Of a DNA stretch of 64,000 nucleotides, positions 14,643-62,490 are shown in pieces. The stretch covers positions 140,696,351 to 140,760,350 of the forward strand of contig CP136062.1 of NCBI GenBank assembly GCA_032622095.1, written 5' to 3'. Under the pieces are notes generated by a model. That model was not told the DNA's origin, ran no database searches, and saw only the letters and a program-made list of their open reading frames with translations. The position numbers and the translations under genes are program-made. This DNA comes from Siphonodentalium dalli. Its lineage: Eukaryota > Mollusca > Scaphopoda > Gadilida > Siphonodentaliidae. Within the stretch, counting starts at the first letter, position 1, and each line of letters begins with the position of its first letter.

Positions 14643-14701
<59 letters not shown>

Positions 14702-14988
14702 TGTGAGTTTCTCTATCTAAAATACAATTCGAGTTCGAATATGGGTTTGATCAGATTATTTTTAATGGAGTTATGGCCCTTTGATATAGAATTCATCCAT
14801 GCTTCGATAGCTCAACCAGTTATTGTCTGATAGGAACCAAATTTGGTATGTGAGTTTCTCAACTCAAAATACAGGTCAAGTTTGAATATGGGTTAGATCC
14901 TGTTTTTTATACCAGAGTTATGGCCCTTTTTAACTAAGGATTGAACAGATTCGATATTTTTATGCTTAGCATGTAGAACCATAGCAGC

Positions 14989-15020
<32 letters not shown>

Positions 15021-33000: not shown

Positions 33001-36000
33001 CCACTGGCAGCCATCTTGGAATTTACAATCAACAGACCACATCCCTCTTCCGATTATCACCAAACTGCATATGAATATTCAGTGTGACCTCTAGATGGGA
33101 GCTTAGCAGTTTTCCGATTTAAAAAAAACCCATGTTTGCCAGTGGCCATCTTGGATTTCACATTTGAATCCATCAGCACACCCTGCCACCCACAATTATT
33201 TGCGAAATGTTTTGAAAATTGACAGTCATGTTTGGGATCACCTCTAAATGGGAGATATCAAATTCGAACGATATTCGATCAAAAACATGGCTTCGGCATC
33301 CATCTAGGATTTTACTCTTTGCATCACTAAATACTTTGGCATGCCCTTTAGCCAACATTTTTTATCCAATTGATCTAAAATATCAAATGGGCTCTTCGGT
33401 TTGACCATGGTATTACTAAAACAATTAAACTTTCCACATTCCTTATCGCTCCATTGACTGTAATGTATGACATTATTTCCTCTCCAAGTTAAGCTACAGA
33501 GTCATTGGCACTTTCATTGAACATATTATCAGAACATTTCCCAAGGCAACTACTCGCCAGTGAGTATTTAGTAAAGTAAAGTGTTGAAGACACCTATCCA
33601 AAATTATATCAATTTATTAAAAATTTGTCTGTGCACATTCTTAGTCTTGGGTTACTGAATCTCAATGAAATTTGTTTAAAGAAATTCCAGACCGTGTACA
33701 ATTCTCACGGCTATGGTGCATTAATTCTGTGTCTTCAGCAAATTCTACGACTAAAGCGTCAGCCGTGGATTTCTGTGAAATTACTTTGCGGTACAAGTAA
33801 ATCTCAAATTCTTGTATGACTAAGACTACTTCTCTATTAAGAATACCTCCCTTGACCATGCTCATTAAGTTGAATGTCATTTACTCGAATTTGCCTGCTT
33901 AAATTTTCATCATTTTACATCAATGCAAACGACGAAATTACTATGAATCATATGATTCATTTGCAGGCAACGTCACTCTCAACGTAGAGCAGGTATCTCA
34001 TCTGGTGGTGTGTCGCACAGTTAGTGTGCCATTTGTATACAATCATTGCATCATATGTGTTCGGATTTGCACAGATTGAGTATGACACATGCCATATTGA
34101 ACATTGGTTGGTTATTAGATAAGTGTGCGTATGATGTCATTTGATTTTTAGCTCAACTTTACTTTGTAAAGTTTGAGCTATTGCCATGACTTTGTCGTCC
34201 GTGTGTGCGTGTGTGTGTGTGTGCGTAAGGCGTCAACAATAGAGGCTACAGGTCGTACCTTTGATCGGATCATTATGAAATTTGTCATAGCTGTTGACAT
34301 CAACATTTGTACCGGAATGATTCATTTTGGGGTCATTCGGAAAAAAAACATGGCCGCCAGTGGCCATCTTAGATTTCAAAATTCAATCCATTAGCACGGG
34401 CTACAGGCCGTACTGTTCGTCTGATCATCATGAAATTTGTCATGGATGTTAATATTGACATGTAGATGGGAACGAGTAATTTTGGGGTCATTCGGCCAAA
34501 AAACATGGCCACCAGCAGCCATCTTCGATTTTACTCTTTGCATGACTAAATCCTTTAGCATGGGCTACAGGTCGTACCTTTGGTCAGATCATCATAAAAT
34601 TTGTCATGGATGTTAACAATGACATGTAGATGGGAACGAGTCATTTTTGGGTTATTCGGGCAAAAAACATGGCCGCCAGCAGCCATCTTGGATTTTACTC
34701 TTTGTATGACTAAATCCTTTAGCACGGGCTACAGATCGTACCTTTAGTCTGATAATCATGAAATTTGTCATGGCTGTTGAAATTGAAATGTAGATGGGAA
34801 CGAGTCATTTTGGGGTCATTCGGCCAAAAAACATGGCCGCCAGTGGCCATCTTTGTTTTCAAAATTCAATCCATTAGCACGGGCCACAGGTCGCATTGTT
34901 CGTCTGATCATCATGAAATTTGTCATGGATGTTAATATTGACATGTAGATGGGAACGAGTCATTTTGGGGTCATTCGGCCCAAAAACATGGACGCCAGCA
35001 GCCATCTTGGATTTTACTCTTTGTATGACTAAATCCTTTAGCACGGGCTACAGGTCGTACCTTTAGTCTGATCATCATAAAATTTGTCATGGATGTTAAC
35101 AATGACATGTAGATTGGAACGAGTCATTTTGGGGTCATTCGGCCAAAAAACATGGCCGCCAGCAGCCGTCTTGGATTTTACTCTTTGCATGACTAAATCC
35201 TTTAGCACGGGCTACAGGTCGTACCTTTGATCAGATCATCATAAAATTTGTCATGGATGTTAACAATGACATGTAGATGGGAACGAATCATTTTTGGATT
35301 ATTCGGGCAAAAAACATGGCCGCCAGCAGCCATCTTGGATTTTACTCTTTGTATGACTAAATCCTTTAGCACGGGCTACAGGTTGTACCTTTAGCCTGAT
35401 CATTATGAAATTTGTCATGGCTGTTGAAATTGGAATGTAGATGGGAACGAGTCATTTTGGGGTCATTCGGACAAACAACATGGCTGCCAGCGGCCATCGT
35501 GGATTTCAAAATTCAATCCATTAGCACGGGCTACAGGTCGTACCTTTCATCATGAAATTTGTCATGGATGTTAACATTGATATGTAGATGGGAACGAGTA
35601 ATTTTGGGGTCATTCGTCCAAAAAACATGGCCGTCGGCAGCCATCTTAGATTTACTCTTTGCATGACTAAATTCTTTGGCACGACCTACAGGTCGTACCT
35701 TTGGTTGGATCATCATAAAATGTGTCATGGATGTTAACAATGACATGTAGATGGGAACGAGTCATTTTGGGGTCATTCTGCCAAAAAACATGGCCTCCAG
35801 CAGCCATCTTGGATTTTACTCTTTGTATGACTAAATCCTTTAGCACAGGCTACAGGTCGTACCTTTAGTCTGATCATCATGAAATTTGTCATGGCTGTTG
35901 AAATTGGCATGTAGATGGGAACGAGTCATTGTGGGGTCATTCGGACAAAAAATATGGCTGCCAGCAGCCATCTTGGATTTAAAAATTAAATCCATTAGCA

Positions 36001-39000
36001 CGGGCTACAGGTCGTTCCTTTGGTCTGATCATCATGAAATTTGTCACAGATGTTAACATTAACATGTAGATGGGAACGAGTAATTTTGGTGTCATTCGGC
36101 CAAAAAACATGGCCGCCGGCAGCCATCTTAGATTTACTCTTTGCATGACTAAATTCTTTGGCACGGCCTACAGGTCGTACCTTTGGTCGGATCATCATAA
36201 AATGTGTCCTGGATGTTAACAATGACATGCAGATGAGAACGAGTAATTTTGGGGTCATTCGGCCAAAAAACATGGTCGCCAGCAGCCATCTTGGATTTTA
36301 CTCTTTGTATGACTAAATCCTTTAGCACGGGCTACAGGTTCTACTTTTAGTCTGATCATCATAAAATTTGTCAAGAATGTTAATAATGACATGTAGATGG
36401 CAAGGAGTCATTTTGGGGTCATTCGGCTTGGATTTTACTCTTTGTATGACTAAATCCTTTAGCACGGGCTGCAGGTCGTACTGTTCGTCTGATCATCATG
36501 AAATTTGTCATGGATGATAATATTGACATGCAGATGGGAACGAGTCATTTTGGGGTCATTCGGCCAAAAAACATGGCCGCCAGTAGCCATCTCGGATTTT
36601 ACTCTTTGTATGACTAAATTCTTTAGCACGGGCTACAGGTCGTACCTTTAGTCTGATCATCATATTGACATGTAGATGGGAACGAGTAATTTTGGGGTCG
36701 TTCAGCTGTAAAACATGGCCGCCAGCAGCCATCTTGGATTTTACTATTTGCATGACTAAATCCTTTCCCGCGGGCTACAGGTCGTAGCTTTGGTCAGAAT
36801 TACATGAAATTTGTCACGGATGTTAACAATGACATGTAGATGGGAACGAGTCATTTTGGGGTCTGTCGGCCGAAAAACATGGCCACCAGCAGCCATCTTG
36901 GATTTTACTCTTTGCATGAATAAATCCTTTGGTGCGGGCTGCAGGTCGTACCTTTGGTAGGATCTTCATGAAATTTGTCATGTATGTTAATATTGACATG
37001 TAGATCGGAACGAGTCATTTTGGGGTCGTTCGGCCAAAAAACTCTTTGCATGACTAAATCCTTGGGCAAAGGTAAGACATTTCAATCAGCATCTTTCCTA
37101 TTTCTCCATTTACTGTAAACCATTAAATTATTCCCCTACCTAAGTTGAGCTACAGTGTCATTGACACTTTCATTAATATATATTAAACCAAATTTTGATT
37201 CGATTACCAGGGTTAAAGTTGTGTCACTTTCGGTCAGATATTGCTATCAACTTGATATCCCGTCTGGGAGAAATTGATCTCCAAACGCTTCATGTTTCGA
37301 GGTGTGGAGAATTCAATGGCAGTTTGCCATGTGTAGTTGTATGCTGAGTGATAAACCAAGTAAATTTCTCTGTATTTATTTTACCCAATTTCAGGTAATG
37401 TTCTTGTCAGAATTGTTCATAAAATTTAATCTTTGATAATATTATGAAGCAGTTAAAGTATTCTATGTTCAAGATTTCATATGCAAATTTTACACCATTT
37501 CAGACTTTGTTGATGCCACTAGTCAAGCACCCTTTGGGGTTGACAAAGAACGCATGAAAGTTCCAACAAATGAAGAAAGAATAAAGGTGAGCACAATGTG
37601 TCATCATTATTAGCATTTTTCACAACTATGTAAAACATATATTTGTGTGGTTTAATAGAATATACATATAAGGTCAATAAAATGAATGAATGAACCTGCC
37701 TTCTCATCAAATTATGGCTTTTTATGGCCCACGACAATAAAAAAAAAAAAATCATTCTGCTGCTCGGTGACAATGGATGAACTAGTGACCATAAATTTAG
37801 CCGCTTGGTGACAATGAATGAACTATTGATAATAAATTTACCTAGACAATTACTTTCTGAAAGAAGCATGCTGGATTCTTTAGTTTCGAAACTTATGTTA
37901 GATTTAGTTCTACTAACCGGAATGCATGATTTAAGCTTTAGACTTCACCATCGCAAAAGATAGGTCAAGTAGAATTTGGGTCCCGGCCATCCATTATTAG
38001 CTCAACTTACTTTGTTTGAGCTATTGCCATGGTTTGGCGTCCGTCGTCCGTGTGTGTGTGTGTGTCCGTCAACAATTCCCTTTGGCGCGGGCTACAGGTC
38101 ATACCTTTGATCTGATCTTTATGAAATTTGTCATTAATGTTAACATTGACATGTAGATGGGAACGAGTCATTTTGGGGTCATTTGGCCAAAAAACATGGC
38201 CGCTGGTGGCCATCTTGGATTTCAAAATTCAATCCATTGGCGCGGGCTACAGGTCGTACTGTTCGTCTGATCATAATGAAATTTGTCATGGATGTTAATA
38301 TTGACATGTAGATGGGAACGAGTCATTTTGGGGTCGTTCGGCCAAAAAACATGGCCGTCAGCAGCCATCTTTGATTTTACTCTTTGCATGACTAAATCCT
38401 TTGGCGCGGACTACAGGTCGTAGTTTTGGTCGGAACTTCATGAAATTTGTCATGGATGTTAACAATGACATGTAGATGGGAACGAGTGATTTTGGGGTCA
38501 TTCTTCTAAAAAACATGGCCGCCAGCAGCCATCTTGGATTTTACTCTTTGCATGACTAAATCCTTTGGCATGGGCTACAGGTCGTACCTTTGGTCTGATC
38601 TTTATGAAATTTGTCATGAATGTTGATATTGACATGTAGATGGGAACGAGTCATTTTGGGGTTATACGGCCAAAAAACATGGCCGCTGGTGGCCATCTTG
38701 GATTTCAAAATTCAATCCATTGGCGCGGGCTACAGGTCGTACTGTTCGTTTGATCATCATGATATTTGTCATGGATGTTAATATTAACATGTAGATGGGA
38801 ACGAGTGATTTTGGGGTCGTTTGGCTAAAAAAACATGTCCGCCAGCAGCCATATTGGATTTTGCTCTTTGCATGACTAAATCCTTTGGTGCGGGCTACAG
38901 GTCGTAGCTTTGGTCGGAACTTCATGAAATTTGTCATGGATGTTAACAATGACATGTAGATGGGAAACGAGTCATTTTGGGGTCATTCAGCCGAAAAACA

Positions 39001-42000
39001 TGGCTGCCAGCAGTCATCTTGGATTTTACTCTTTGCATGACTAAATCCTTTGGCACAGGCTACAGGTCGTACCTTTGATCAGATCATTATGAGATTTGTA
39101 AAGGCTGTAGATGGGAACAGGCCATTTTAGAATTTACTCTTTGCATCACTAAATCCTTTGGCACACCATAATCACCACATCCCTGATCCGATCATTATAA
39201 AACCTGTCATGAATGTTGATATTGACATATACATCTAGTCTTACTTAGACATTTCAATTAGCACCTTTTCTATTCCTCCATTTACTGTCAACCATTAAAT
39301 TATTCCCCTACCTAAGTTGAGCTACAGTGTCATTGACACTTTCATTTACCACAGTTATTGGTCTGTCTTGTTATTCTCATTATCTTGTTGCCAGACAGAT
39401 TATGTCATAATGGGGCCTCAAGATATGGTACCAGACATTTGCAAGTCCCAAGAGGGTGAATTTAGTGATGCTACCCTGCACAGTGGGCTAGCATCACTAA
39501 ATTCACCCTCTGGGGACCTCATTCTGCTTAGGCTCCATCTTCTCAGGAAATAGGTTTATTATCAAATAAATAAGTTTTTTAGTTTCTTTCCTTTTTTTTT
39601 TAGTTTAGTTTCTCAGAATCCCCAAATTGGCAGACGACATAATGCATAATCGAGGTGTCCAATGGGTGCATATCACCATCTTCACCATTTGGGAATTAAA
39701 ATCTGAAGTCTAGGTCTGCCGTAGATGAGGCCGTGCAGAATGAACCCCCCACAGCAAATGTCTGGCATCATATCTTTGGGGCTGTTCTTCATTCGGTTTT
39801 CTTTACAGGAGGATGTTAAAAAAGCTCATGAAAAGGTTCGAAGGAATGTATCTCCTGGTACAAGACAAAGAATAGAAGATGAAAAGTATGTTTAATTAAT
39901 GCAAGACAACATTATAAATTATTGTGGTAGATTTAACATGGTGTGACATTGACCGCTTGGAGTTTATGTTCAACTGATTCACAGGGTGACAAGATACGAA
40001 CATAGGGTACAAGCCGTCAGTGTCACCCCATGTTACCCTCAATCAACCACAATAATATATTAGTTCTGCTGAGAGTCCTGGTCATGCATAGTAGTGCTCA
40101 ATTAGACAATTATTCCAGAAGAATGATTGCCATAAAATGCAAAAATCTCCTATTGATTTATCCATAAACTAGCTGAAACAGGCTCCCTTTTATAGCCTTT
40201 ATGCAGCATAGAAGGATCCTGCAGTCCCTATGTGCTACGTGCGTATTTATACCCTCGCAACAAAGTTGTGGTGGGGGGGGGTATACTGGATCGGCTTGTC
40301 CGTCCATCGTCCGTGGACATAAATTTGTCTAGTTTTTCTCAGTTGTTTTTTAATCATTTTCCGTGAAACTTGGCACAGACATCAACCACCATGGGAACCT
40401 GTGCATCTGCGATTATGACATCTGTCCGACTTTTTTTGGTGGAGTTATCCCCCTTTTTTTACTTAGAAATTTTTTGCAACATGTATAATTTTATCCTTGA
40501 CACAGATATTTAGTGACATGGGAACCTGTGCACCTGCAATTATGATGTCTATCCGACTTTTTTTGGTGGAGTTATGACTTTATTCCCCTTTTTCAACTTA
40601 GAACATTTTCGCAACATGTATAATTTTGTCCGAGCTATTATTCCTACATTTTTAAGTAAATTGTTTTAAACTTGGCACATATATTTAGTACCATGGCAAC
40701 CTGTGCACCTCCTGCTATTATTAAGTCTGTCTGAGTTTTTTTGGTGGAGTTGTGCCCCTTTTTCGACTTGGAAATTTTTCGCAACATGTATAATTTTGTC
40801 CGAGCTTTTATTCCTACATTTTTAGGTCAATTTTTTTGAAACTTTGCACAGATATTTAGTACCATGGGAACCTGTGCACTTGCTATTATGATGTCTGTCT
40901 GACTTATTTGGTGGAGTTATCCCTCTTTTTTGACTTAGAAATATTTTTGCAACATGCATAATTTTTATTCATACATTTTTATACCCCCCGCCGGAAAAAA
41001 ATTCCAGACACATATCCTACTTTTTTGCCGATGACCACTTTTTGGACCCACCGACCCCAAATTTGTTTCCATTTCATAGAGTTTTTTCCAGCCATGTTTT
41101 GACACCCACCCCTTGTGGAACGCAAAACACAAATGTACAGAGAAAACCAGGACAAAACCTCCTACATTGAGATTCAGTGAATCTAATAATGAACAGCAGG
41201 ACTGGTCTCTAGCAGTATATTCTTGACTGCAGTGGATTTTGTCCCTAGAAACATGTAGGTGGTTGAATAGTCTGCTTACCAATCTAGAGCACAAATAATG
41301 GTGAGTACATTAAAAATACCCCAAGCTGATCATTCAGTCCCTTGGCAAAATCATAGTAAAAACAATATAGCTGAGTGTCCAAGAAAGAAAAAAAGCTTTA
41401 ATTTCTCACAAAATACTGAGCTTCCAAAGTTTACAATAAAATTTTGACAAAATATGACAAACAGGATAGAGTTATTCCTCTTGATTCCAATTGATTCAGA
41501 TTGGTCAGGATTGGTTAGGAATTCTATAGCGTTCACAGTTTATCTTGTATGAATTCAGGAATCTTGTATGATTTCAGAAAAGGCATTATTTCTATTGGAC
41601 TGCTCAAGTGTAGCATGTGAGAGTAAAGCATATAATAAAAAACAAACCTACACTTTTAGTAGAAACCTGTATTAACTCATTCATGACTACATGAGATTGT
41701 GAATTATTACCATTTTCTATCTCTTTTGTCACATATGAGATAATTGTGTTATCCACTCACAAGTCTATATGTATGTTTCATGTTTTTTTCTTTATACATC
41801 AGTGTATACATCAGTGTTTAATATCCATGTTTGACCAGATTTGGCATTAAATTTATTTCTTTAAAGTTATCCTTATTTGATGTTAATTACATAGAATACT
41901 GCATGGGCGATTCAGCTGCATTAAGAATACTTTCCCTTGTCCTAAAGAGGCACAAACCAACATCCAATGGACCTAGCGTGTTTAGTGTTGCTGCAGTTCC

Positions 42001-45000
42001 TTATTATTAGCTCAACTTACTTTTGTAAGTTTGAGCTATTGCCATGGTTTGGCGTCCGTCGTCCGTGTGTCCGTGTGTCCGTGTGTCCGTGTGTCCGTCA
42101 ACAATTTCCTTTGGCGCGGGCTACAGGTTGTACCTTTGGTCTGATCTTCATGAAATTTGTCATGAATGTTGACATTGACATGTAGATGGGAACGAATCAT
42201 TGTGGGGTCATTCGGCCAAAAAACATGGCCGCTGGCGGCCATCTTAGATTTCAAAATTCAATCCATTGGCGCGGGCTACAGGTCGTACTGTTCGTCTGAT
42301 CATCATGAAATTTGTCATGGATGTTAATATTGACATGTAGATGGGAACGAGTCATTTTGGGGTTGTTCGGCCCATAAACATGGCCGCCAGCAGCCATCTT
42401 GGATTTTACTCTTTGCATGACTAAATCCTTTGGCGCGGGCTACAGGTCGTAGCTTCGATCGGAACATCATGAAATTTGTCATGGATGTTAACAATGACAT
42501 GTAGATGGGAACGAGGGATTTTGGGGTCGTTCGGCCGAAAAACATGGCCGCCAGCAGCCATCTTGGATTTTACTCTTTGCATGACTAAATCCTTTGGCGC
42601 GGGCTACAGGTCGTAGCTTCGATCGGAACATCATGAAATTTGTCATTGATGTTAATATTGACATGTGGATGGGAACGAGTGATTTTGAGGTCGTTCGGCG
42701 AAAAAACATGGCTGCCAGCAGCCATCTTGGATTTTACTCTTTGCATGACTAAATCCTTTGGCGCGGGCTACAGGTCGTTGTTTTGGTCGGAAGTTTATGA
42801 AATTTGTCATGGATGTTAACACTGTCATGTAGATGGGAACGAGTGATTTTGGAGTTGTTCGGCCAAAAAACATGGCCGCCAGCAGCCATCTTGGATTTTA
42901 CTCTTTGCATGACTAAATCCTTTGGCGCGGGCTACAGGTTGTACCTTTGGTCTAATCTTTATGAAATTTGTCATGAATGTTGACATTGACATGTAGATGG
43001 GAACGAATCATTGTGGGGTCATTCGGCCAAAAAACATGGCTGCTGGCGGCCATCTTAGATTTCAAAATTCAATCCATTGGCGCGGGCTACAGGTCGTACT
43101 GTTCGTCTGATCATCATGAAATTTGTCATGGATGTTAATATTGACATGTAGATGGGAACGAGTCATTTTGGGGTTGTTCGGCCAATAAACATGGCCGCCA
43201 GCAGCCATATTGGATTTTACTCTTTGCATGACTAAATCCTTTGGCGCGGGCTACAGGTCGTAGCTTCGATCGGAACATCATGAAATTTGTCATGGATGTT
43301 AACAATGACATGTAGATGGGAACGAGGGATTTTGGGGTCGTTCGGCCGAAAAACATGGCCGCCAGCAGCCATCTTGGATTTTACTCTTTGCATGACTAAA
43401 TCCTTTGGCCCGGGCTACAGGTCGTACCTTTGGTCTGATCTTTATGAAATTTGTCATGAATGTTGACATTGACATGTAGATGGGAACTAGTCATTTTGGG
43501 GTCATTCGGCCAAAAAACATGGCCGCTGGCAGCCATCTTGGATTTCAAGATTCAATCCATGGCGCGGGCTACAGATCGTACTGTTCCCCTGATCATCATG
43601 AAATTTGTCATTGATGTTAATAATGACATGTAGATGGGAACGAGTGATTTTGGTGTCGTTCGGCCAAAAAACATGGCCGCCAGCAGCCATCTTGGATTTT
43701 ACTCTTTGCATGACTAAATCCTTTGGCGCGGGCTACAGGTTGTACCTTTGGTCTAATCTTTATGAAATTTGTCATGAATGTTGACATTGACATGTAGATG
43801 GGAACGAATCATTGTGGGGTCATTCGGCCAAAAAACATGGCCGCTGGCGGCCATCTTAGATTTCAAAATTCAATCCATTGGCGCTGGCTACAGGTCGTAC
43901 TGTTCGTCTGATCATCATGAAATTTGTCATGGATGTTAATATTGACATGTAGATGGGAACGAGTCATTTTGGGGTTGTTCGGCCAATAAACATGGCCGCC
44001 AGCAGCCATCTTGGATTTTACTCTTTGCATGACTAAATCCTTTGGCGCGGGCTACAGGTCGTAGCTTCGATCGGAACATCATGAAATTTGTCATGGATGT
44101 TAACAATGACATGTAGATGGGAACGAGGGATTTTGGGGTCGTTCGGCCGAAAAACATGGCCGCCAGCAGCCATCTTGGATTTTACTCTTTGCATGACTAA
44201 ATCCTTTGGCACGGGCTACAGGTTGTACCTTTGGTCTAATCTTTATGAAATTTGTCATGAATGTTGACATTGACATGTAGATGGGAACGAATCATTGTGG
44301 GGTCATTCGGCCAAAAAACATGGCCGCTGGCGGCCATCTTAGATTTCAAAATTCAATCCATTGGCGCGGGCTACAGGTCGTACTGTTCGTCTGATCATCA
44401 TGAAATTTGTCATGGATGTTAATATTGACATGTAGATGGGAACGAGTCATTTTGGGGTTGTTCGGCCAATAAACATGGCCGCCAGCAGCCATCTTGGATT
44501 TTACTCTTTGCATGACTAAATCCTTTGGCGCGGGCTACAGGTCGTAGCTTCGATCGGAACATCATGAAATTTGTCATGGATGTTAACAATGACATGTAGA
44601 TGGGAACGAGGGATTTTGGGGTCGTTCGGCCAAAAAACATGGCTGCCAGCAGCCATCTTGGATTTTACTCTTTGCATGACTAAATCCTTTGGCGCGGGCT
44701 ACAGTCGTAGCTTCGATCGGAACATCATGAAATTTGTCATGTATGTTAACACTGTCATGTAGATGGGAACAAGTGATTTTGGAGTTGTTCGGCCAAAAAA
44801 CATGGCCGCCAGCAGCCATCTTGGATTTTACTCTTTGCATGACTAAATCCTTTGGCGCGGGCTACAGGTTGTACCTTTGGTCTAATCTTTATGAAATTTG
44901 TCATGAATGTTGACATTGACATGTAGATGGGAACGAATCATTGTGGGGTCATTCGGCCAAAAAACATGGCCGCTGGCGGCCATCTTAGATTTCAAAATTC

Positions 45001-48000
45001 AATCCATTGGCGCGGGCTACAGGTCGTACTGTTCGTCTGATCATCATGAAATTTGTCATGGATGTTAATATTGACATGTTAATGGGAACGAGTCATTTTG
45101 GGGTTGTTCGGCCAATAAACATGGCCGCCAGCAGCCATCTTGGATTTTACTCTTTGCATGACTAAATCCTTTGGCGCGGGCTACAGGTCGTAGCTTCGAT
45201 CGGAACATCATGAAATTTGTCATGGATGTTAACAATGACATGTAGATGGGAACGAGGGATTTTGGGGTCGTTCGGCCGAAAAACATGGCCGCCAGCAGCC
45301 ATCTTGGATTTTAATCTTTGCATGACTAAATCCTTTGGCGCGGGCTACAGGTCGTTGTTTTGGTCGGAAGTTTATGAAATTTGTCATGGATGTTAACACT
45401 GTCATGTAGATGGGAACGAGTGATTTTGGAGTTGTTCGGCCATAAAACATGGCCGCCAGCAGCCATCTTGGATTTTACTCTTTGCATGACTAAATCCTTT
45501 GGCGCGGGCTACAGGTTGTACCTTTTGTCTAATCTTTATGAAATTTGTCATGAATGTTGACATTGACATGTAGATGGGAACGAATCATTGTGGGGTCATT
45601 CGGCCAAAAAACATGGCCGCTGGCGGCCATCTTAGATTTCAAAATTCAATCCATTGGCGCGGCCTACATGTCGTACTGTTCGTCTGATCGGAACATCATG
45701 AAAGTTGTCATGGATGTTAACAATGACATGTAGATGGGAACGAGGGATTTTGGGGTCGTTCGGCCGAAAAACATGGCCGCCAGCAGCCATCTTGGATTTT
45801 ACTATTTGCATGACTAAATCGTTGGGTGCGGGCTACAGGTCGTACCTTTGGTCTGATCTTTATGAAATTTGTCATGAATGTTGACATTGACATGTAGATG
45901 GGAACGAGTCATTTTGGGGTCATTCGGCCAAAAAACATGGCCGCTGGCAGCCATCTTGGATTTCAAGATTCAATCCATTGGCGCGGGCTACAGGTCGTAC
46001 TGTTCGTCTGATCATCATGAAATTTGTCATTGATGTTAATAATGACATGTAGATGGGATCGAGTCGTTTTGGGGTCATTCGGTCAAAAAACATGGCCGCC
46101 AGCAGCCATCTTGGATTTTACTCTTTGCATGACTAAATCCTTTGGTGTGGGCTACAGGTCGTAGCTTTGGTCAGATGGTCATGAAATTTGTCATGAATTA
46201 TAACAATGACATTTAGATGGGAACGAGTCGTTTTGGGGTCATTCGGTCAAAAAACATGGCCACCAGCATTTTACTCTTTGCATGACTAAATCCTTTGGCG
46301 TGGGCTACAGGTCATACCTTTGGTCTGATCTTTATTAAATTTGTCATGGATGTTAACACTGACATGTAGATGGGAACGAGTTGTACCTTTGGTCTAATCT
46401 TTATGAAATTTGTCATGAATGTTGACATTGACATGTAGATGGGAACGAATCATTGTGGGGTCATTCGGCCAAATAACATGGCTGCCAGCGGCCATCTTGG
46501 ATTTCAAAATTCAATCCATTGGCGCGGTCTACAGGTCGTACTGTTCGTCTGATCATTATGAAATTTGTAGGTCGTAGCTTTGGTCAGATCTTCATAAAAT
46601 TTGTCATGGATGTTAACAATTATACGTAGATGGGAACGAGTCCTTTTGGGGTCAATTGGTAAAAAAAAATGGCCACCAGCAGCCATCTTGTATCTTACTC
46701 TTTGCATCCCTAAATCCTTTGGCGCAGGTTAGACATTTCAATTAGCACCTTTCCTATTCCTCCATTTACTGTCAACCATTAAATTATTCCCCTACCTAAG
46801 TTGAGCTACAGTGTCATTGACACTTTCATTGATTTCTTAGTGTTACAAACCAGTAGAAACTAGTAAAAATTCTCCCCCCTGCCCCCGCAGAGTTATTGGC
46901 CTTCTTGACTTAGAATATGTTCAATCATCGGACATTCTCGAGAGTTTTTGTCCCCCGAAAAATTAATTTTTGGGGGACTATAGAAACGGGCTCCGTTCGT
47001 CCATCCGTTCGTCCGTCGTTCCGTCTGTCCGTCGCACCGTCGTTCCGTCGAGCTGTACGTTCGTCCATCACACTTTTGAGTACCTTCATGGTGTAATCAT
47101 CTCCTCCTACAGATTTCATCCCAGAGATTTAAAACTTCAGAATATTGTTGCCCATATATTGAAGATGTGCAACATGCATATAGATGACGGAAAAATTATT
47201 TTTTGACGGAGTTATTAAACCTTTTCGACTTAGAAAATTTCAACATTTAAAACAATTTCTTCAACAAAGCGGCATCGACTTTCCACGTTTTCGGGGGACA
47301 CTGTGGTCTGCTGACCTTTTATTCTCAGTTGTTTATGATTCTTTTTTTGTTAAACTTTGCACAGACATCAACCACCATGGGAACCTGTGCACCTGCAATT
47401 TCAATGTTGGTCAGACTTATTTTGGTGGAGTTATTGGCCTTCTTGACTTAGAATATTTTCATTTTTCTCAGTAATATTTGACCAATTATTTGTGGTGAAG
47501 ATGATGTTTGTCCAGAGGTTTTCTCAGTCATTGCTGAATAATTGTGCACCTGCAATGGGAATCTGTTATTTTATTATTTTAACTTAATGTTTACTGTCAT
47601 GTGAAACATCTTAGTGTTTTAAAAACATGGGGGGTATCCTTAGTCCCATTGGGAGTCACATCTCTGGTTTGATCTTAGATAGAGCCTTTGTAAAGCGGTG
47701 GCCACTTTGTGCGCTTTGCGCACATTTTGATCATCTAATAATTTGGATTTTTAACAAATTTTTAATTTAAATCTTTCTTTTTTTTAGATTTGCTCAATTG
47801 ACATTTTTTTTAAAATTTATTTAATTTTAATTTATAACATATGCCAGGGTAGCCTAACTCACCACACCAAATTTGGTTGAAAACGGACCAGTGGTCTGGG
47901 AGAAAAATCCAATGGTCATTTGTTGAACTTATTATCTGAACATTTCCTAAGGGAACTACTCGTCAATGAGTATCTAGTATAGAAAGGGTTAAGATGTAAA

Positions 48001-51000
48001 CAAGGGATATATTATGCAGCTTTCTGGCCAATAAAAGATGCTGTTTCTTACTGGAGGTGGGACATAACCTTGTAAACAGTTGGGGACAAACATTGTAGGA
48101 TATAGGATAATATTTTATTTCACAATACAATGGTAATACATTATAATATGAGTTAATTGATAATCGTATAAGTATTGTGTGGATTGCCGTGGCCTATGAC
48201 AACTGTCTACCCGGCACCCCCGATTGACAGAATACAATCAATACTGGCTACATAAATAATTTAAATATTTCACTATAATTTCCAGATTAAATTAATATTT
48301 AAATTGGATTTAGATAAATAGATATAGATTCCAGCAAATAAAAATTGTGATACAGCAATTTATTATATGACTGGATTTTCTGAGCAAAATGTGGCAATTT
48401 TGGTGAACTATTCCAGATTATCAGAATCAACAGTGTGGTTTTTCGATTCCATATACCGTATCCAGGCCTTCAGATTGGTGGAATTGAGCAAATCAGTATG
48501 GACCAACAAGAGTGAGAAAACCAATATCAAGCATTCACAATCTCAGTGAGAGCTTTCCGATGAATGGTAACGAGCCATATTTCCGACTAAGTCCTGAAAA
48601 GTTACCCATATTTCTGCTGTGGTTAAGGAGTCGATTATTTAGGGCATTACTGTAACACTGACATCATGATATGACTCAGCGACTGAAACAACAATAAACT
48701 CCAAACCAAATCCATGAATTCATCAAATGGCTGTAAATTTTCAGAAACAATAGAATCCGACAACTTGAAAGAAAGATCAAAGACCACACATTACAGATGC
48801 ACGAAAGACGGAAAATGCCTCAAGGGACGCCACAGGAGGAGATGGTCGCTGCTCAAAAGGAGTTAGAGATAGTACGTATCTGCTACCAAAACTCAATTGT
48901 CTCTTGCTATCATTCTACTCCAGTCCCTGCACAAGCTTAATGTGTCCTGTTATATCCCAATTTAGCTATGTTAGGATTTACAATCTCTCACTAGTTCCCA
49001 TAATTGGTGTCTAGCAACAAAGGTGTACTATTGTTTCCATTGTTTTGTGTAGGTTCCTCTTCTGAAAACCTAAGCCCTGCTAGATATCTTACTTGTCACA
49101 AGTGATGTGGCCTAGCCTTTAAAACGGCGATAAACAAACTAAATATTACTCATAAATCATGATAAAGATAGTTTTAATGCCGTACATAGTGAAAGTAGAT
49201 TACATAATCAAGGGTTTAACTCTTTTTATACTGAATGAATTCTCCCATTAAGTTACAAAAGTATACATTTGAATGGTCTATCATTCTTCTGGAGGGATGT
49301 TCAGATAATTTAAGCTCATGACAGACGAACATGTAAAGAAAGCGAAGAAGAATTCCTATACATTGGTGGGAAATGTTCAGATAATAAGTTCATCGCAATT
49401 TTTTGAACTTATTATATGAACATTTCCTAAGGGAGCTACTCATCAATGAGTATTTAGTATAGTTCTAAAGTGTTAATACCTGACAGATTTAAAGACATAT
49501 TATGGACTTATTTGGGTGCGTTAAATTGATAAGTTAGAGCTCATGCGCTATGCCAACCTGGAAAATATAGCATTCTACTAACATCCCCGAAAATTTCAAA
49601 GAAATCGACCACACCACTCATTAGAAAACATCGTCTGAACTACGCCCAATTGTAAATATTTACATCTTGATTCGGGACGCAACTATCAGCGATAATCTAA
49701 CACAAATGATTTCGCCATCGCGAGTCATTGCATTTAATTAATATATAAGATTGACAGTATGTATCGTCAATTTGGATTAATATTCGTAACAAATAACTAC
49801 TTTGAGCAAGATTATTATCAATTTCTCTTTGATCACCCTACCGGAGTGTTCACATCACTTTAAAGAAATTTTCAGGCCGCGACATGAGTGAAAGGGAACT
49901 TCCTGTGCTTGTTTTACAAGACTAATATTATGTTATAAGCCTAAAAGTTGGTTTTGTACGTAAACTGACTATATACATATGGTGAGTTTGAGGTGTACGA
50001 CTAGAGGCATTGAGTTATCACATTTAATACTTATTTGAAGTTATTATGTAATAATTGTGAATGATCTAAACTACATGTATTTGGCGACACGAATGTGCAG
50101 ATCATCAGTAACTAATAGTACAGTAATGCCCTAAATAATCGACTCCTTAACCACAGCATAATTATGGGTAACTTTCAGGATTTAGTCGAAAATATATCTC
50201 TCAGTGAGAGCTTTCCGATGAATGGCAACAAGCCACATTTCCGACTAAATCCTAAAAAGTTGCCCATAATTCTACTGTGGTTAAGGAGTCGATTATTTAG
50301 GGCATTACTGTAACTCAAGGTTGAAGGTCCCCTAAATAAATCTCGCAAACATTTTATTGATGAGTTCAATTGTCTAAGGAAATATTGTAGATTGCTTGGA
50401 TAAGTTTGTAAGTTTGTTTGTGTAAGTGACCTGCCATCATGGCTCAATACAATTTCATCATGTTTGTTCGTGCCGTCTGTATGCTGAATATATTGCATAC
50501 TCTACAAAACAATAACAGATCCATATATTATTCTTTTTTGAATATAATTGCTATCACATTCACATACGTTATATACATAGTGATGCCGATGGGGTCATTG
50601 TCACAAGGCCATGATCATATTCATAGCCAGCTTTTCAAACTGGTCACAAGTGTCATCAGCTTTTCACTGGGGAGCACATTCATAGTTAGTTTTCAAATTC
50701 CATCATTTGATGACGTGATATATGATGTCATCGTGTGAACTTGTGACTAAATTGACGAAGTTATGATCCAAATCTGGATTCATTTGTTAAGTTATAGGAA
50801 TAAAACTTAATCAATTTCATGACATTTATCAAAAATCTTATTATGATAAATGAATATTTAATTTATTTCTTCCCTTATGTAAGTTGTTTTACATTCATCT
50901 TCTGAAGATTGTGATTAGCTAAGCAAGCCTTGTTCAATATGCCTTGAAAAGCTGGCTACGAATGTGACTGGTTTGAAAAGCTGGCTAAGAATGTGATGAA

Positions 51001-54000
51001 TGCCTTGTGACAGTGACCCCATTAGCCTTAGTGATAGATTTATCACAGTTTTGAGATCACATGCCTCTATTATCAGCTTCTGCAGTCTGCCTTGTTTGAT
51101 TAGATATATATCTGGTATAAACATAGAACATTTCCTTATCTGTGACAAAGACAGTCTCTGTTTGCATCTTGTCGCAAACTAATTATTTGTATCTGAAATC
51201 ATGGGGTGTATTCAAATCTGTGTTTTCGTGTGTTGACAAACATTAGACCATCAGGACGCAACCTGCGAGTGACGATTTAAACATCAAGAACAGACCAAGA
51301 ACAGACCAAGAAAGTGTTCACAGGTTAGGATTTTCACTCCTCGGTGTGAAGATCCAAGCCGTTGAACATGTCATCACAGTGTTAATGTACCAGTTCCCAG
51401 TGTTTGAATCGTCAAGAACCTGTTCACGGTATTCAGTCTTTGTAATCTGCAGTTCACAAACAATCAAGTATAGGGATTCGAATACACCCTATGATGCCAC
51501 AATGTTCAGTACAGGGATTCGAATACACCCTATGATGCCACGATGTTCAGTACGGGGATTCGAATGTACCCTATGATGCCACGGCATTCTATCATAATAA
51601 TAACCAGGTTAAGAGTTGATTGCATCACACTTCAGACATCAGGAATTGAAATAAAATAATTTTATTACAAACTCAATGTTGCATTCTCACTAAAAGCAAT
51701 GGCTTTCAACTGAGTGGTAATTTTCGACAGAAAGCCCTAGAGCGATCCTGGTATTTTTTTGTGGCAAGCTATGTCTTGATATTGCTACAGGCGATGTAAT
51801 GAGAATTTCTTATTTTTATAATGCCAAAATTGTTGCAAAACAATGAATTTCTTCTTATAATTAACAATTTCATTTGTGATTGGGTTATGTAATAAATATA
51901 GAGCCGCGCTGTTTTGGGATGGGTAAGTGATGATCACATGTCAATGTTTCGCGGAAGGATATCCCGGCTCTTGGGGTATCCTTCCGCGAAACGCTCTCAT
52001 GCAATAATCACTTCCCTGTCCCAAAACTGTGTGGCTCTATCTATATTCTATGTGAAAAGTGCATAATACTGTCTGTAAGAAGATATATTTTCGACATTCT
52101 TGTCAACTAAAGAGACCTTTGAAAACTCTTGCACAGACCTAGTTTAGAAAAGAATATAGCATTTCATAATTTTTTGCTACCAATTATACAGAATATTGTA
52201 ATATTCCGAATCTTAATGTTTGAAGTGTGACATATAGTTGGATCTGAACTTGCGTATCTTATATCTAGGATTATGCAAGAAGTTAGGTCTATTACCAACT
52301 CTTTTCTGATAGAGTGGAGTTATCTGTCCAACAATTGCAGACCAGATAAGGTCATTGAATTATTAAAAAAACTGGTGTCCTCACAGAACCATGGGCTACT
52401 TCAGCTCTATTTATTATGTTTTCTGAAACCAAGAGGATATTAGAGTAGAAACCTGGAGTGTATCTTTCAACTTTGGAGTGCAAAATGCATGGCATTAAAA
52501 TGAAAACATGAACAAACATTTTACCCATCAGGTTAAATTCGTCTATATCCTTTAGTTTTCTTCATAAAAAAACTCTTGACTGGTAAAAAGTAAATAGCAT
52601 ATTTTGGCCTACCATGAATATTTTAATGGCCTAACAGGGATTGATATTGATAAGATGTCAGATTTTCATGATACTTCTCAACAAGAGAGAATGAGAAACA
52701 GCAATAGAGAAAAATATCTTTCAAAATGTTACGATTCACTACACATTTCAGATCTTTTCAGATTACTATGTGATATTGAGAATAATAAGATTCAGTCAGT
52801 CAATCTCACATAATTATCTGATACTCTCTGATACTCTCACCACATATGCTTCTTTGGTTTTTATTGGTTTGTATTTTCTAATCAATGGTAAGAGTAAATG
52901 GTAACATTTGGTAAAATTTGGGATTTGATCTTCAAAAAGAGTTATCATTCCACATATATTATATATAGTAATCATTATCTGAATAGTGATTTAAAAAACA
53001 AATATTATGAACACAATACAAGAAAAAATTATTTCTGCCTCTACATGTTCTCATCCTCACAATTGAGGTACCATACAGGGTTTGCACTGCTGCTCATTGT
53101 CAAATAATCACTAGAGAATTTACTCAAGTCTGAACTATTGTAGGGGTACTGTACACTAAATCCAGCCATTTATGGGACCATCTGTTATACTCAACAGATT
53201 TGTACACAACAAATGAATGAATTTTTAGCCATGGTTTAGTGCCAAATACACTCATGTGCTCTATGAATGATGTAAACAACATTGTCATTTATATAATGAA
53301 AATGAGTTAATGACTCGAGTCATAAACTCATTTTCATTATAATTACCATGTTGTTTTGTTTAGAAAATATTTGAGTGTATTTTGCACTCATCCTTGGCTC
53401 AAATTCAACCATTTATTGCATATATTCTGTTGGTTATATTCTAATAGGACATGGTCCCATAAATGTCTGGATTTAGTGTACAGTCCCTCTTTAAGCCAGG
53501 TCCTACTAAATAATATAGCTAGAACTTTCAGGGTTTGGAATTTCAGCAATTAAAGGCCCTCTTAATTTTCGAGTCGCCGATTAGTGACGATATACGGTTT
53601 TAATAACAATCCATAAAGTATGATTAAAATACTAAAATTCATCACCATTTGAAACATCTGTGTCTCAGAAGATGCCCATAGAGAAATAGAAACCAGCTGA
53701 AATCATAGGAAGATCCCCCCCCCTGTTTTGGCTCCCAGAATGCAACAGAATTCAAACTAAAGATGAATTTTCAATGTAAGGGGAATAACTCTATTTTAAG
53801 ATATAGTGTTATTCCCCCTCCATGGAAAATAATACACTTTTTACTACAAAGTAGATGACAAAAACACGTTGGTAACTCAACAAAAACAACACGTTCACAG
53901 TTTATTACACTGGATAAGTTGATAATACAATTTTTTAGAGCTTCCTCTTTCAAATGGTATATACTATGGCATATATTTTAATAATGTGATCTGGGGGTTC

Positions 54001-57187: not shown

Positions 57188-57430
57188 ATATTCCCATCAA
57201 AGATACGTTACACACTGAACTACATGGTATATTCATCTTTATTCACAAGAAAAGATTCTATGAGATCTGTTTAAAATTTATTATTTTTGTACGAAATAGC
57301 TTAAGTACCTTTTGAATCATTTATTATTATGACGTAGCAGGTCAAGGTCATTTGTCCACTCGTTATGTATATAAGCAAGTGGACTCACAGTAAACGGCCT
57401 CTTTTTCTCTTGTGACAAGATTCGAAGGGA
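57188..57430. repeat. DIRS-like left inverted terminal repeat
   Basis: It begins ATATTCCCATCAAAGATACG and contains CACTGAACTACATGGTATAT and GACGTAGCAGGTCAAGGTCA. It is the reverse complement of the right terminus. Confidence 0.8.
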
Positions 57431-60306
57431 AGTAAAAACTAACGCTATGAGAAATGAAACCACATATTATTGTCGGCTTCATTTAACAATTCCGTTCCAC
57501 ATTTTTTGAACTTGTTGTGACATCGGTTCAATTTTGGAAACGACACAATAATTATTAAATTAATATCAGAGTGACAATTTCATTCAATTTCCCTGTTTTA
57601 TTTGTTTTAACGCAAATAAAATACAAAAACTATATTGTTCTGTTGAAAATTGTGGGTAATTTCCCAACTTCCGGAGCACGTGGTTTAGAATTCGGAATTA
57701 ATTTCGGAATTGCACTTCGTCTGTTTATATGCAGCGGTTCACGTGTTGAACTTTCTGGGACAATGCCTATACAGCACAGTTGTTATGTTATCTCTGTTTC
57801 TTGTGGTTTTAGAATGTAAGTATTAGAACATTCAACCAGTGAGACAACATTGGTTTCTAACTTTGTTTATGTTGAAATTGGCACGTGACAACATTCGTTT
57901 TGTTTACGTCGAAATTCTGAAATTGTCACTCACAAATCTGTTTCATGTTGACATATGTAGCAAAATTAGGGATCAGGTTTGGGTCCCTTTTCGTTTATCT
58001 ATGAATTAACTCACTTGTGTGGTTTTGCTTGGCTCATAGTTCACTATGAAATAATTTACAATACATTGAGATTGTTTGCCAACAAAATAACTTTTTTGTC
58101 AGATCAATATGACACAATTTCACAGATAATAATGTGACGCATCAGTCACCTAATTTCATGGTAAATTTTTGGGTCCCTTTCCTGATCCTTATACATGTAA
58201 CTGGTCATACCACAGGCTATTTTCTTCCTCGTGTGGCCTCGGTTTCAGTAACCCCATTGTCAAGCAGGTTCAGGCTAATCCAATTCCTCGTTCCATGCGG
58301 ACCTTGAGGTGGCCCAGCCGCATACTTCACCATTGAATTCACTGTAGCCAGACGCCATACTGTTCCGAGGGTGGGTTCCAGTGTTCACGGATCCGACCAT
58401 GCTCGCCCGCTCCTGCTGGATCCTACCTCAGATTTCGTCCTCCCACATCCCTTTCACAAGCATGTGCGATGTACAAAATCTGTCAGCCCCCTAGGGAGCA
58501 ACTTAACTGGTATCGCATCACAATTTGCCATCCAAAATTGGATAATAGCCATGCAATTTGGTATGAATTTTATGTCAACTTTGAGATTGAGAACAAAATA
58601 CTATCTCATCATGTCCATGTGAGGCTATTTATTTGATATCAAAATTTCCAAGTAAGTTGCTCCCTGGCGTCTACCCTCGGGTGGAATTGCTGTTAAGACC
58701 ATTTCCCGGGACTCTGCATGACCTTCAAATGCTTGCTATTTGGCGGGAGGCAAGTTGTACCAGTGTAGCCACTGGGGCGGGTAGCGTTTCATAGTCACTG
58801 TCTTGGGGGGTGATACTCGAATCGAGTAATATCTCAGATCTTGGGCTCGTGTCATCTAAATGTTTCGGTTCATTCTATGTATATTTGACTGCTCTGCCCA
58901 TTCAACATGTAGTTCAATGCAGATTGTGTGCATTTAGAAACACTAGTGTGGTGTCGTCCTGTTGGTCAGGTTTCTGGATTTGTGTCGTGACCTAGTAGGT
59001 CGCCGCTGCCCAACTGGCTACACTGTATGATTCTGCTTCCTGTCAGGGTTTAAGCTGGCTCCGGTTAAGGGGGGAATCAGTCTGCTCATTAATCACTCCT
59101 CGATGTCTCTTCCAAGGCTTACACAGTCCTGTTTATTCAGTTTTTTACTCTAAAGATAACAAAATCCATTGCTTGGATCTGACGATTCCATATTTAGATT
59201 ACATTTCTAATTAACAGGGCTACTTGCCATCCAACGCGAATCCTGATTCTCACTTGGATTTCGAAGAGCTCTTGCTGCTTTTTCTTGTCTGTAACAAAGA
59301 ACTAAGTTAATTGCAAGGCATCGAGGGGTTGCAGATGCAGTTTCTCTCCTCGGATATGGGTCCTGGGGGGTTCGAGGGGGGACCGAGCACTGGGCCACCA
59401 GACAGCACGCCGTCTAATGCCGGGTAATCTCGGGTGCTGTCTATAACAGTGAACATAGCGCAGTCATCGGCCGGGGCAGAGACTTTTAACAGACACTCAA
59501 TTTGTGTTTTCATGCGGTTTTACCTGGGCTCAAACTTATTACCTTTCCACCTGTCATTGATTAGCATTGTCCTTTGTTTATGGGTGACCGTTCGATTCTT
59601 CTAGTGGTAAATTTACACAGATCATCTTTCACCCTTACTACGGTTCCATGGGGCATAACACCAAGCCTTGGATTCCTTCTAAGATTTTGCGAGCATCACT
59701 CAGGCCTTCTGCGGTGTTGGGCTGGGTTTTTTCTGCGAACCAAGTTGGGAATCATATTTCTCTTTGCGTAGAACATTCATCATCTTTTGACTCTGCAGCC
59801 TTAGGACAATCCCAATGAGCTTTCCCTGTAGTACCAGGATTAGATCTATTCGCGCTCAATATTATGGCTTTACAGTTTGGGTTCGCTTATCGGGTTACGA
59901 TATAGACAATTGAACTCGCGCAATCTTCTGGGGTGGCGGGTACGGTAGGTAATAACCTGTTCCATGGGAACAGGTGCATTACAGAACTTTGAGCCCTGCG
60001 TCATGCCAACAAAACTCATTGATGCCCTGCTTGATGGAGTTTGGCGTTACTGTACTCAGTGCTCCTTTTTTTACAGGCTGTCTTGAATTACTACACAACA
60101 GACGAGCTATTCGTCTAACGGCGCACATGAGGCAATCATTGTTGGCGACAGAGTCTCTGCCCGCGGGGAGGAACTAGGGTCCGGGTCCTCGCTGTATGAG
60201 CGGCAGACAACCGTCCGACCATACACACATGTGATTGGTCTTCAGTAAAATGTGCCCTTCTGTTCACATTACTGGCGTACCTCCTTGACCATGTCGAATG
60301 GGTGTA
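57431..60306 (+). other. DIRS-like interior, left of the hypermutated MITE
   Basis: GC content rises from about 57650 on. Reading frames are short and broken. No reverse transcriptase YxDD or tyrosine recombinase R..HxxR..Y motif could be picked out by eye. Only the weak RNase H-like DAVSLLGYG string near 59330 hints at former coding sequence. Confidence 0.4.
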
Positions 60307-60519
60307 CAGTGGTGCTCGGGGTGTTTGGCCGCTTGGCCGCGGCGGAGTTGTGGGTGATTTTTCGGGATTTGGTCGGTGGTGTGGCTTGTTGCTGTTCATC
60401 GGGGGGCTCTCGACGAGAGCTTTCCGATGGGTGGCGGCGGGCCGTGTTTCCGGTTGGGTCCTGGAGGGTTGCCCGTGGTTCTGCTGTGGTTGGGTGGTCG
60501 GTTGCTTTGGGCATTGCTG
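60307..60519 (+). mobile_element. M1 MITE copy with strand-biased A-to-G hypermutation
   Basis: It aligns without net indel to the 213-bp M1 palindrome at 17543-17755. About 50 of roughly 64 A positions of the M1 sequence read G here, against about 14 other differences in total and only about three T-to-C. The result is a GC-rich, no longer self-complementary copy in which new G residues face unchanged T. Of 16 A preceded by T, 15 are G and one is T. Unchanged A are mostly preceded by G or C. The ORFs that cross it (60252-60542 and others) exist only because the changes removed stop codons. Confidence 0.85.
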
Positions 60520-61640
60520 TGTACTTTCGCCTTGGTGGATGAGGTGAGCTACACACAGCTCATGGACCCGGGCCCTTCGTCTGTTAAGAACAATCAGTGA
60601 ATAACTAGAAGATACAATCTTCTTGTTATCAACATTCTGGTTGTTTTTAGACCTTAATCATCCATGGCCTGTTCTTTCTTTCAGATTGTTTGGAGTAGTT
60701 CCATCACGATGGGTCTCCTCCTTCTACACATTTTCTAATAAGTTACATGCAGACTGCAAAGTATTCCTTTCAATCATGTGTACATGTAACTGCATACACT
60801 ATTGGATTGACAGGCTGTGGAAGTAGTTTACAACTCAGGACTCTCCGAACTTTTTCTTCTCGATTGTTTCGATACCAGAAAACATTTTGGGACTTTCCAA
60901 GTCATTTAATGCTCTTGATCGACTTAGTTACCTGGGGTTTTTGTTACCAGTTTCCAGCCTTAAAGTAAATTCCGATCAGGGGCATTGACCGACGGAATAT
61001 GGCCTCTGTCTGTTGTATTTATTAACTGAAGTAAAATACTGTCATTTGACGGTCAGTCAGAAAATACTTATTTTGCGCCTTGATAAGTTTGTCGATTTGG
61101 GGTTGCACATTTACTGACAGTCAGTCGCAGACCTTACAAGCATGATGCAGTGGCTATTTAGCTCTGGGTTTTCTTCACCATACATGAGTTGGTGGTATGT
61201 TTCTATTCGCCTTTACAGTTGCTACTTCCTCGTGTTACATCCAGATTGACCATTCAGGTAACAATAGATTTCCTTCCTCTGGTGTAGAAACGTCGGGATA
61301 GCTTGGTTCGTTCAGTCACATACTATGGGTGACCTATGCTTTCTGCATATAACCAGCTTACTCCAGGGAGGAGGTGGCACATGCATGTACCTGCATATGA
61401 GATTTCACAATTACAGGTTTGTCTGACTTAATTCAGAACCAAAGGGGAGAGGTGCAGAGTTTCAGCCATTGGGCTTATTCTCCCACTTTCTCCACTCTAC
61501 CTGGTAGCATCAATCAAATCTGCAAATCATTACCTTTTGATCCATTTGTTGCTAAACAACTCAGCAGGTTCAAAAGAATTATTCTCAACTAAAATACCAT
61601 AGTATCTCATTCCTCGCAGCCTCTTCCTATGAGTTGATTC
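60520..61640 (+). other. DIRS-like interior, right of the hypermutated MITE
   Basis: Short broken reading frames only, with no motif recognised. Composition returns to about the local average, without an obvious excess of G. Confidence 0.4.
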
Positions 61641-61734
61641 TACCATGTAGTTCAGTGTGTAACGTATCTTTGATGGGAATATAACATTTTCAATAGAAAA
61701 TACATATTCCCTAATAAGATACTTACACACTGAA
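61641..61734. repeat. DIRS-like internal complementary region
   Basis: The complement of the left terminus (61641-61682) abuts the complement of the right terminus (61683-61734). The join reads GGGAATAT|AACATTTTC. Confidence 0.8.
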
Positions 61735-61789
61735 CTCACATGTCCCTCCCAAATTGGGATTTTCCCTCCCCGCTGCTCGGTCACACCCC

Positions 61790-62055
61790 TCGAATCTTGT
61801 AAGAGGATAAAAAGAGGCCGTTTACTGTGGGTCCACTTGCTTATATACATAACGAGTGGACAAATGAAAATGACCTTGACCTGCTACGTCATAATAATAA
61901 ATGATTCAAAAGGTACTTAAGTTATTTCGTACCAAAATAATAAATTTTAAACAGATCTCATAGAATCCTTTCTTGTGAATAAAGATGAATATACCATGTA
62001 GTTCAGTGTGTAAGTATCTTATTAGGGAATATGTATTTTCTATTGAAAATGTTAT
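61790..62055. repeat. DIRS-like right inverted terminal repeat with extension
   Basis: Reverse complement of 57188-57430. Beyond the shared part it continues TAGGGAATATGTATTTTCTA to TTGAAAATGTTAT, the tip present in the internal complementary region but not in the left terminus. Confidence 0.8.
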
Positions 62056-62215: not shown

Positions 62216-62490
62216 CATCATTGTCATGACGATTACATCACCATCATCATCTTCATCAACATCATCATCATCATTATCGTCTTCATCATTGTCACTGCAA
62301 TCATCATAATCATCACCATCAATCATCATCCTCACCATCATTATCATCATCATCATTGGCATCATCATTGTCATCATCATCATCATCATCTTCATCATCA
62401 TCATCATTATCATCATTATCAATCATCATCATCAATCATCATCATTATTCTCACCGTCATTACTCATTAGTATCATCATCATCGCCATCA
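62216..62490. repeat. (ATC)n-rich trinucleotide repeat
   Basis: About 275 bp of imperfect ATC/ATT/ACC triplets. The poly-Met/Asp and poly-His ORFs on the two strands are repeat translations, not genes. Confidence 0.9.

Follow-up and report, generated by a model that had tools for sequence, protein, structure and literature searches.

A-to-G hypermutation of the ADAR type has been recorded in the inverted repeat of avian retroviruses, where nearly 50% of A were changed according to a review (PMC12925331). The locus described here is similar in that ADAR-characteristic A-to-G changes occur in retroelement sequence; in the retroviruses, an inverted-repeat region was among the places affected. 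The present locus differs in that the changed sequence is a DNA-transposon hairpin within a DIRS-like element, that about 80% of A are changed, and that the record lies in assembled genomic sequence.

RNA hyper-editing of repeats is common in Metazoa, and depletion of G upstream of the edited site is common to the hyper-editing motifs, as stated in PMC5625713. Those clusters, like the present one, lie in repeats able to form double-stranded RNA and are depleted of upstream G, but they were seen in RNA reads, whereas the changes reported here are in DNA. Clusters of both A-to-G and G-to-A have been sought in sequencing traces (PMC2873906); that paper reports G-to-A clusters in retroelements as DNA editing and A-to-G clusters in cDNA as RNA editing. 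APOBEC-type G-to-A editing of retrotransposons, as described there, also leaves strand-specific deaminase clusters in genomic retroelements. However, the base change and the enzyme are different, and that enzyme acts on minus-strand DNA after reverse transcription and not on duplex RNA.

Among the titles and abstract openings listed in searches of open-licence papers, at most 20 per search, none mentions an ADAR-type A-to-G record in a retroelement-carried MITE. New at the present locus would be that ADAR-type editing is clearly recorded in genomic DNA, in the hairpin of a MITE that sits within a DIRS-like element; ADAR-type A-to-G change in the inverted repeat of avian retroviruses was already on record.

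M1 copies in the window

The sequence analysed is a 64-kb stretch of DNA, referred to below as the window. M1 is a near-perfect 213-bp palindrome with a TA target-site duplication. Besides the copy with dense A-to-G changes, the window contains six other copies, whole or partial.

60307-60519, + strand: M1 palindromic MITE copy with dense A-to-G changes
17543-17755, + strand: unedited full-length M1, used as the reference
12232-12605, + strand: unedited M1, interrupted between 12410 and 12575
13363-13470, - strand: unedited partial M1
20402-20540, + strand: unedited M1 with an internal deletion
48541-48652, + strand: unedited partial M1
50121-50310, + strand: unedited M1 with a small deletion

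The majority sequence of these six copies, with both orientations pooled and the TA flanks included, gave a consensus of 217 positions that is self-reverse-complementary at 216 of them. The six copies differ from it by 4 to 7 changes each in the main aligned piece (110 to 216 positions), and one copy has 4 more in a short second piece; these counts are somewhat lowered because the same copies went into the consensus. A-to-G changes among them are limited to one in one copy and two in another, with none in the remaining four. The features of a Tc1/mariner-type MITE are present, namely, terminal inverted repeats in the form of the palindrome and a TA target-site duplication at 9 of the 10 inspected ends (the tenth has CA), and we take M1 to belong to the Tc1/mariner superfamily. 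Exact-pattern scans for M1 relatives in the viral_contigs and genome_contigs collections, which are not expected to hold the genome of an animal, gave 0 matches. In two regions, 17114-17654 and 20429-20916, an M1 copy lies beside another repeat, and the two regions form one loosely matching inverted pair (67%).

A-to-G excess at 60307-60519

In an ungapped comparison with the reference copy (213 against 213 bases), 50 of 63 A were changed to G, and there were 19 other changes, 7 of them T to C. Compared with the consensus and with its TA/TG flanks included, the copy at 60307-60519 shows A-to-G changes at 51 of 65 A and T-to-C changes at 3 of 65 T (Fisher P = 4e-19). The 12 further changes are C to T (5), A to T (3), and one each of T to G, C to G, G to A and G to T. 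The dominance of A-to-G on one strand was thereby confirmed. The original prediction had estimated about 50 changes among about 64 A, with about 14 others and about three T-to-C. Part of the difference between these estimates and the counts arises because the reference copy deviates from the consensus at seven positions.

The copy is the strongest A-poor stretch of the whole window, with a score of 46.9 compared with 18.9 for the runner-up. All 19 rows of a self-scan of the window for A/G clusters involve it, pairs being counted in both directions. Clustered A-to-G change on one strand, by which ADAR-type hyper-editing is recognized, is present at 60307-60519.

Pairing between the arms

The palindrome allows the direction of change to be read without any other copy, since an uncompensated T-to-C or G-to-A change on the + strand would yield an A.C pair between the arms; C-to-T, like A-to-G, yields G.T. 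With flanks included, the 108 arm-to-arm pairs of the changed copy are 55 G.T, 40 G:C, 11 A:T, 2 T.T and 0 A.C, while the consensus has 65 A:T and 43 G:C. The reference copy, also with flanks, has 64 A:T, 38 G:C, 4 G.T, 1 A.C and 1 T.T among 108. The coin-toss probability of 55 G.T against 0 A.C is 6e-17. A single A-to-G change in a consensus A:T pair accounts for 48 of the 55 G.T pairs; of the other seven, five are single C-to-T changes and two need a change on both sides.

In three arm pairs (15/199, 24/190 and 106/108), both bases changed, giving a different Watson-Crick pair. These pairs contain all three T-to-C changes (24, 108 and 199) and three A-to-G changes (15, 106 and 190). The six changes, lying in pairs that are Watson-Crick again, were therefore probably present as variants in the source copy. 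With the compensated changes set aside, the edit-like count is 48 A-to-G against 0 T-to-C. The finding of 55 G.T and no A.C, in which the G faces T between the arms, indicates that A is the ancestral state, as originally proposed, and that a single strand was changed. The two arms were equally affected (25 of 33 A in the left and 26 of 32 in the right), which is expected when both belong to one folded RNA.

Extent and sequence context of the changes

A makes up 12 of 217 positions in the palindrome; in the flanks, it makes up 67 of 300 on one side and 75 of 300 on the other. The comparison of the hairpin with the surrounding retroelement sequence, which had been suggested earlier, showed that the changes are confined to the palindrome and that the flanks keep a normal A content. 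The maximum-likelihood A-poor segment is 60309-60538; its right edge lies 17 nt past the palindrome and its TG, and these 17 nt contain one A. Apart from this overshoot at the right end, the changes are restricted to the region able to form a duplex, as is characteristic of ADAR-type hyper-editing.

The dinucleotides flanking the palindrome were as follows.

60305-60306, + strand: left target-site TA, unchanged
60520-60521, + strand: right target-site dinucleotide TG, facing the left TA in the palindrome

As the right TG is opposite the left TA in the palindrome, it is within the duplex, and it is probably a TA whose A was edited.

The proposed ADAR-like preference for the 5' neighbor was also found. 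The unchanged A follow G (5 of 12) or C (3 of 13) more often than A (2 of 20) or T (1 of 17). The permutation P value for the ranking T = A > C > G was 0.009, and the hypergeometric P value for unchanged A after G was 0.029. A located no more than 5 nt from an end or from the center were unchanged more often (4 of 7) than those elsewhere (7 of 55; P = 0.015). These neighbor and position tests are based on 11 unchanged A, and their choice was guided by the ADAR model. Sorted by the 3' neighbor, the edited A number 18 of 20 when the next base is A, 15 of 19 when it is T, 7 of 9 when it is C and 10 of 13 when it is G. Hyper-editing in invertebrates and amphibians favors A downstream, according to PMC5625713.

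The changed copy still folds into one long hairpin (60285-60541, -154.7 kcal/mol), and none of 200 shuffled sequences was as stable; the fold of the unedited reference (17521-17777) has -184.2 kcal/mol.

Among the stop-to-stop frames left after filtering for complexity, the longest, 60139-60657 (- strand, 173 amino acids), overlaps the changed copy, as does the frame 60200-60544 (+ strand, 115 amino acids). Stop triplets number 1 and 1 on the two strands of the changed copy and 14 and 14 in the 17543 copy. Both frames are probably by-products and not genes, because stop codons disappear from both strands as A is lost.

The DIRS-like host element

In DIRS1-like elements, the internal complementary regions are located at the 3' end (PMC3266345). 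The element surrounding the changed copy, 57188-62055, has the following parts, named after the same paper.

57188-57429, + strand: left inverted terminal repeat, in agreement with the reverse-complemented right end at 228 of 248 columns
57430-61631, + strand: host interior without a recognizable coding domain (Pfam, six frames, stops as X)
61632-61682, + strand: left internal complementary region, 51 nt, 94% complementary to the left terminus 57188-57238
61681-61736, + strand: right internal complementary region, 56 nt, 100% complementary to the right terminus 62000-62055
61786-62032, + strand: right inverted terminal repeat, pairing with 57188-57429 at 228 of 248 columns
62033-62055, + strand: right extension, with a match in the right internal complementary region and none in the left terminus

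Features shared with the DIRS1-like elements described in PMC3266345 and PMC9210276 are the inverted terminal repeats, the left and right internal complementary regions toward the 3' end, the right extension and the lack of a target-site duplication. The 10 bases on either side of the present element differ from each other. Between the left and right internal complementary regions there is an overlap of 2 bp (61681-61682); the circular junction of the DIRS1-like elements is 3 bp long. The present element also differs from those descriptions in that it carries a MITE and that no reverse transcriptase, methyltransferase or recombinase domain was detected. No Pfam family was found in any of the six frames of 57430-61631, including the reverse transcriptase/RNase H, methyltransferase and tyrosine recombinase of DIRS1-like elements, and none was found in nine stop-to-stop pieces of the element or in one piece beside it.

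The absence of a coding domain indicates that the host is non-autonomous or decayed, and in the absence of its own reverse transcriptase, a partner in trans would have been needed. Of the proposed DIRS-like retroelement, the DIRS-type termini were thus recovered and the coding capacity was not, and the element is called DIRS-like for its termini only. The location of the internal complementary regions near the right (3') end identifies the + strand as the sense strand. The A-to-G changes are therefore on the sense strand, as the model of edited RNA needs; editing of an antisense RNA would appear as T-to-C.

Editing of the host terminal repeats was sought and not found, with 3 G.T and 2 A.C in 239 aligned columns. 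A longer terminal alignment, which runs past the ends of the element, contains 13 G.T, 4 A.C and 25 mismatches of other kinds. The window was found to contain no further copy of the host, and an exact-pattern scan of viral_contigs, a collection not expected to hold an animal genome, gave 0 matches to the host terminus. The GC content of the host interior is 0.44 to 0.56 in most windows from 58200 to 60300, compared with about 0.24 to 0.32 to the left of the element; no coding domain was found there.

Origin of the changes

The best explanation, which we regard as probable, is that hairpin RNA of the element was hyper-edited by an ADAR-type enzyme and then reverse transcribed into the genome. 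The enzyme, the passage through RNA, the reverse transcription and the order of these events are inferred, and the presence of an ADAR in the source organism is assumed. An M1 MITE would have inserted into the DIRS-like element, and within the sense RNA of the element, the MITE would have formed a hairpin of slightly more than 100 bp. An ADAR-type adenosine deaminase would then have turned about 80% of the hairpin adenosines in both arms into inosine. Reverse transcription would have read inosine as G, and integration would have fixed the result in the genome. The original prediction was supported, in that the features open to testing came out as it requires: one-strand A-to-G change, its confinement to the palindrome, the 5' preference, equally changed arms, DIRS-like termini and the sense orientation of the changed strand.

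Some observations are less easily accommodated. The unedited terminal repeats speak against general ADAR exposure of the host RNA; this may be attributed to poor formation of a duplex closed over 4 kb. The proportion of changed A (about 80%) is also high compared with the inverted repeat of avian retroviruses, for which nearly 50% is cited (PMC12925331). This level may, with less than even odds, have built up stepwise, if every cycle of RNA, ADAR and reverse transcription converted more A:U to G:U and the hairpin then refolded and was edited anew. Since the present copy, with G in place of inosine, is still one long hairpin, repeated rounds are possible, and refolding would be aided because G:U pairs better than I:U.

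Alternatively, the hairpin may have been edited in another transcript and only afterwards brought into the DIRS-like element, either through a template switch of the reverse transcriptase or because the MITE transposed when already edited. Elsewhere the host gives no indication of editing, and it lacks a recognizable coding domain, which is consistent with such a late arrival. However, the right TG inside the duplex together with the retained left TA fits insertion first and editing afterwards, an argument that depends on one base, and later joining appears improbable.

Adenine deamination at the DNA level, by ADAT2/ADAT3 or by ADAR acting on an RNA:DNA hybrid, could in principle change one DNA strand without the editing of a folded RNA. 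ADAT2/3 of amphioxus deaminates A in DNA (PMC10354150), and ADARs can edit the DNA of heteroduplexes in model substrates (PMC12925331). However, amphioxus ADAT2 prefers hairpin loops and acts at GAA sites, according to PMC10354150, whereas here A near the center and A after G were spared more often. An RNA:DNA hybrid would include the flanks, which have normal A, and deamination of minus-strand cDNA would be expected to yield T-to-C on the sense strand and not A-to-G. We consider this route quite unlikely.

An M1 subfamily that became GC-rich through ordinary substitution or GC-biased conversion, and that only looks edited, would accord with the compensated pairs 15/199, 24/190 and 106/108, from which it follows that the source copy differed somewhat from the M1 copies of the window. 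Both processes are, however, strand-blind, while the excess of G.T over A.C is not, and A-to-G is rare in the six other copies; such an origin is very improbable. Palindromes are difficult to sequence, which could favor an assembly or polishing artifact, such as correction of the genome by RNA reads at the palindrome, but reads with about 80% of A changed should hardly be alignable for polishing, no other listed inverted pair in the window is comparable, and an artifact is scarcely credible.

If editing of the hairpin RNA followed by reverse transcription is the correct explanation, ADAR, besides acting on transcripts, marks genomes heritably by way of reverse transcription. A palindromic MITE within a retroelement would then constitute a built-in recorder, in which A:T becomes G:T on one strand and both the direction and the extent of editing can be read from a single copy. 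If several rounds did take place, the retroelement would keep a heritable, ratchet-like record of repeated ADAR exposure in the germ line. If palindromes were searched for G.T pairs unaccompanied by A.C, the frequency of such records and their range among animals would become apparent, and ADAR-type could be separated from APOBEC-type editing.

Control scans and other features of the window

Control self-scans of the window with other letter pairs gave 47 rows for C/T, 32 for A/T, 10 for A/C, 4 for G/T and 59 for C/G. Five of the C/T rows are the changed copy seen from the other strand, and the other 42 are low-complexity matches of 14642-15015 with 24797-24838. The A/T rows are between A+T-rich stretches. 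Four of the A/C rows and all four G/T rows pair the changed copy with the simple repeat at 14631-14702; the remaining six A/C rows and 56 of the C/G rows involve simple-repeat sequence at 14643-15022, and the last three C/G rows involve a trinucleotide repeat near 62237-62459.

The search for inverted pairs in the window covered pairs of at least 60 columns; the changed copy against itself was absent from this listing and was counted separately. None of the other inverted pairs of this length approaches 55 G.T to 0 A.C. Examples leaning toward G.T are 50589-51022 (28 G.T, 9 A.C), 51891-52047 (16 and 6) and 28318-28413 (6 and 0). The 17543 copy against itself gave 8 G.T and 0 A.C in this search, in which self-pairs were apparently counted twice. 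Others lean the other way, such as the pair at 7792-8179 (38 A.C, 8 G.T), whose sequence and fold are those of an ordinary foldback with a large loop. The foldback region 7413-8594 contains repeated short complementary stretches around ATACATAAATGCACAC.

Searches of the window for tRNA genes and Rfam families gave 0 matches. Of the 96 stop-to-stop pieces with a length of 75 amino acids or more, 40 were scanned against Pfam, and one match was clear, a leucine-rich repeat at 11150-11494; four others, one with an E value of 0.00075 and three with E values of 0.04 to 0.07, were all under the curated cutoffs. The stretch at 11150-11494 is exon-like and ends at a GT resembling a splice donor, and it appears to resemble the animal gene LRRC27. 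Large arrays of a 164-bp tandem repeat are located at 34244-37042, 38079-39099 and 42107-46381, with a higher-order period of 319 and, in two of the three, an additional one of 483. A 346-bp tandem duplication at 14356-15020 (1.9 copies, 100% matches) contains simple-repeat sequence.
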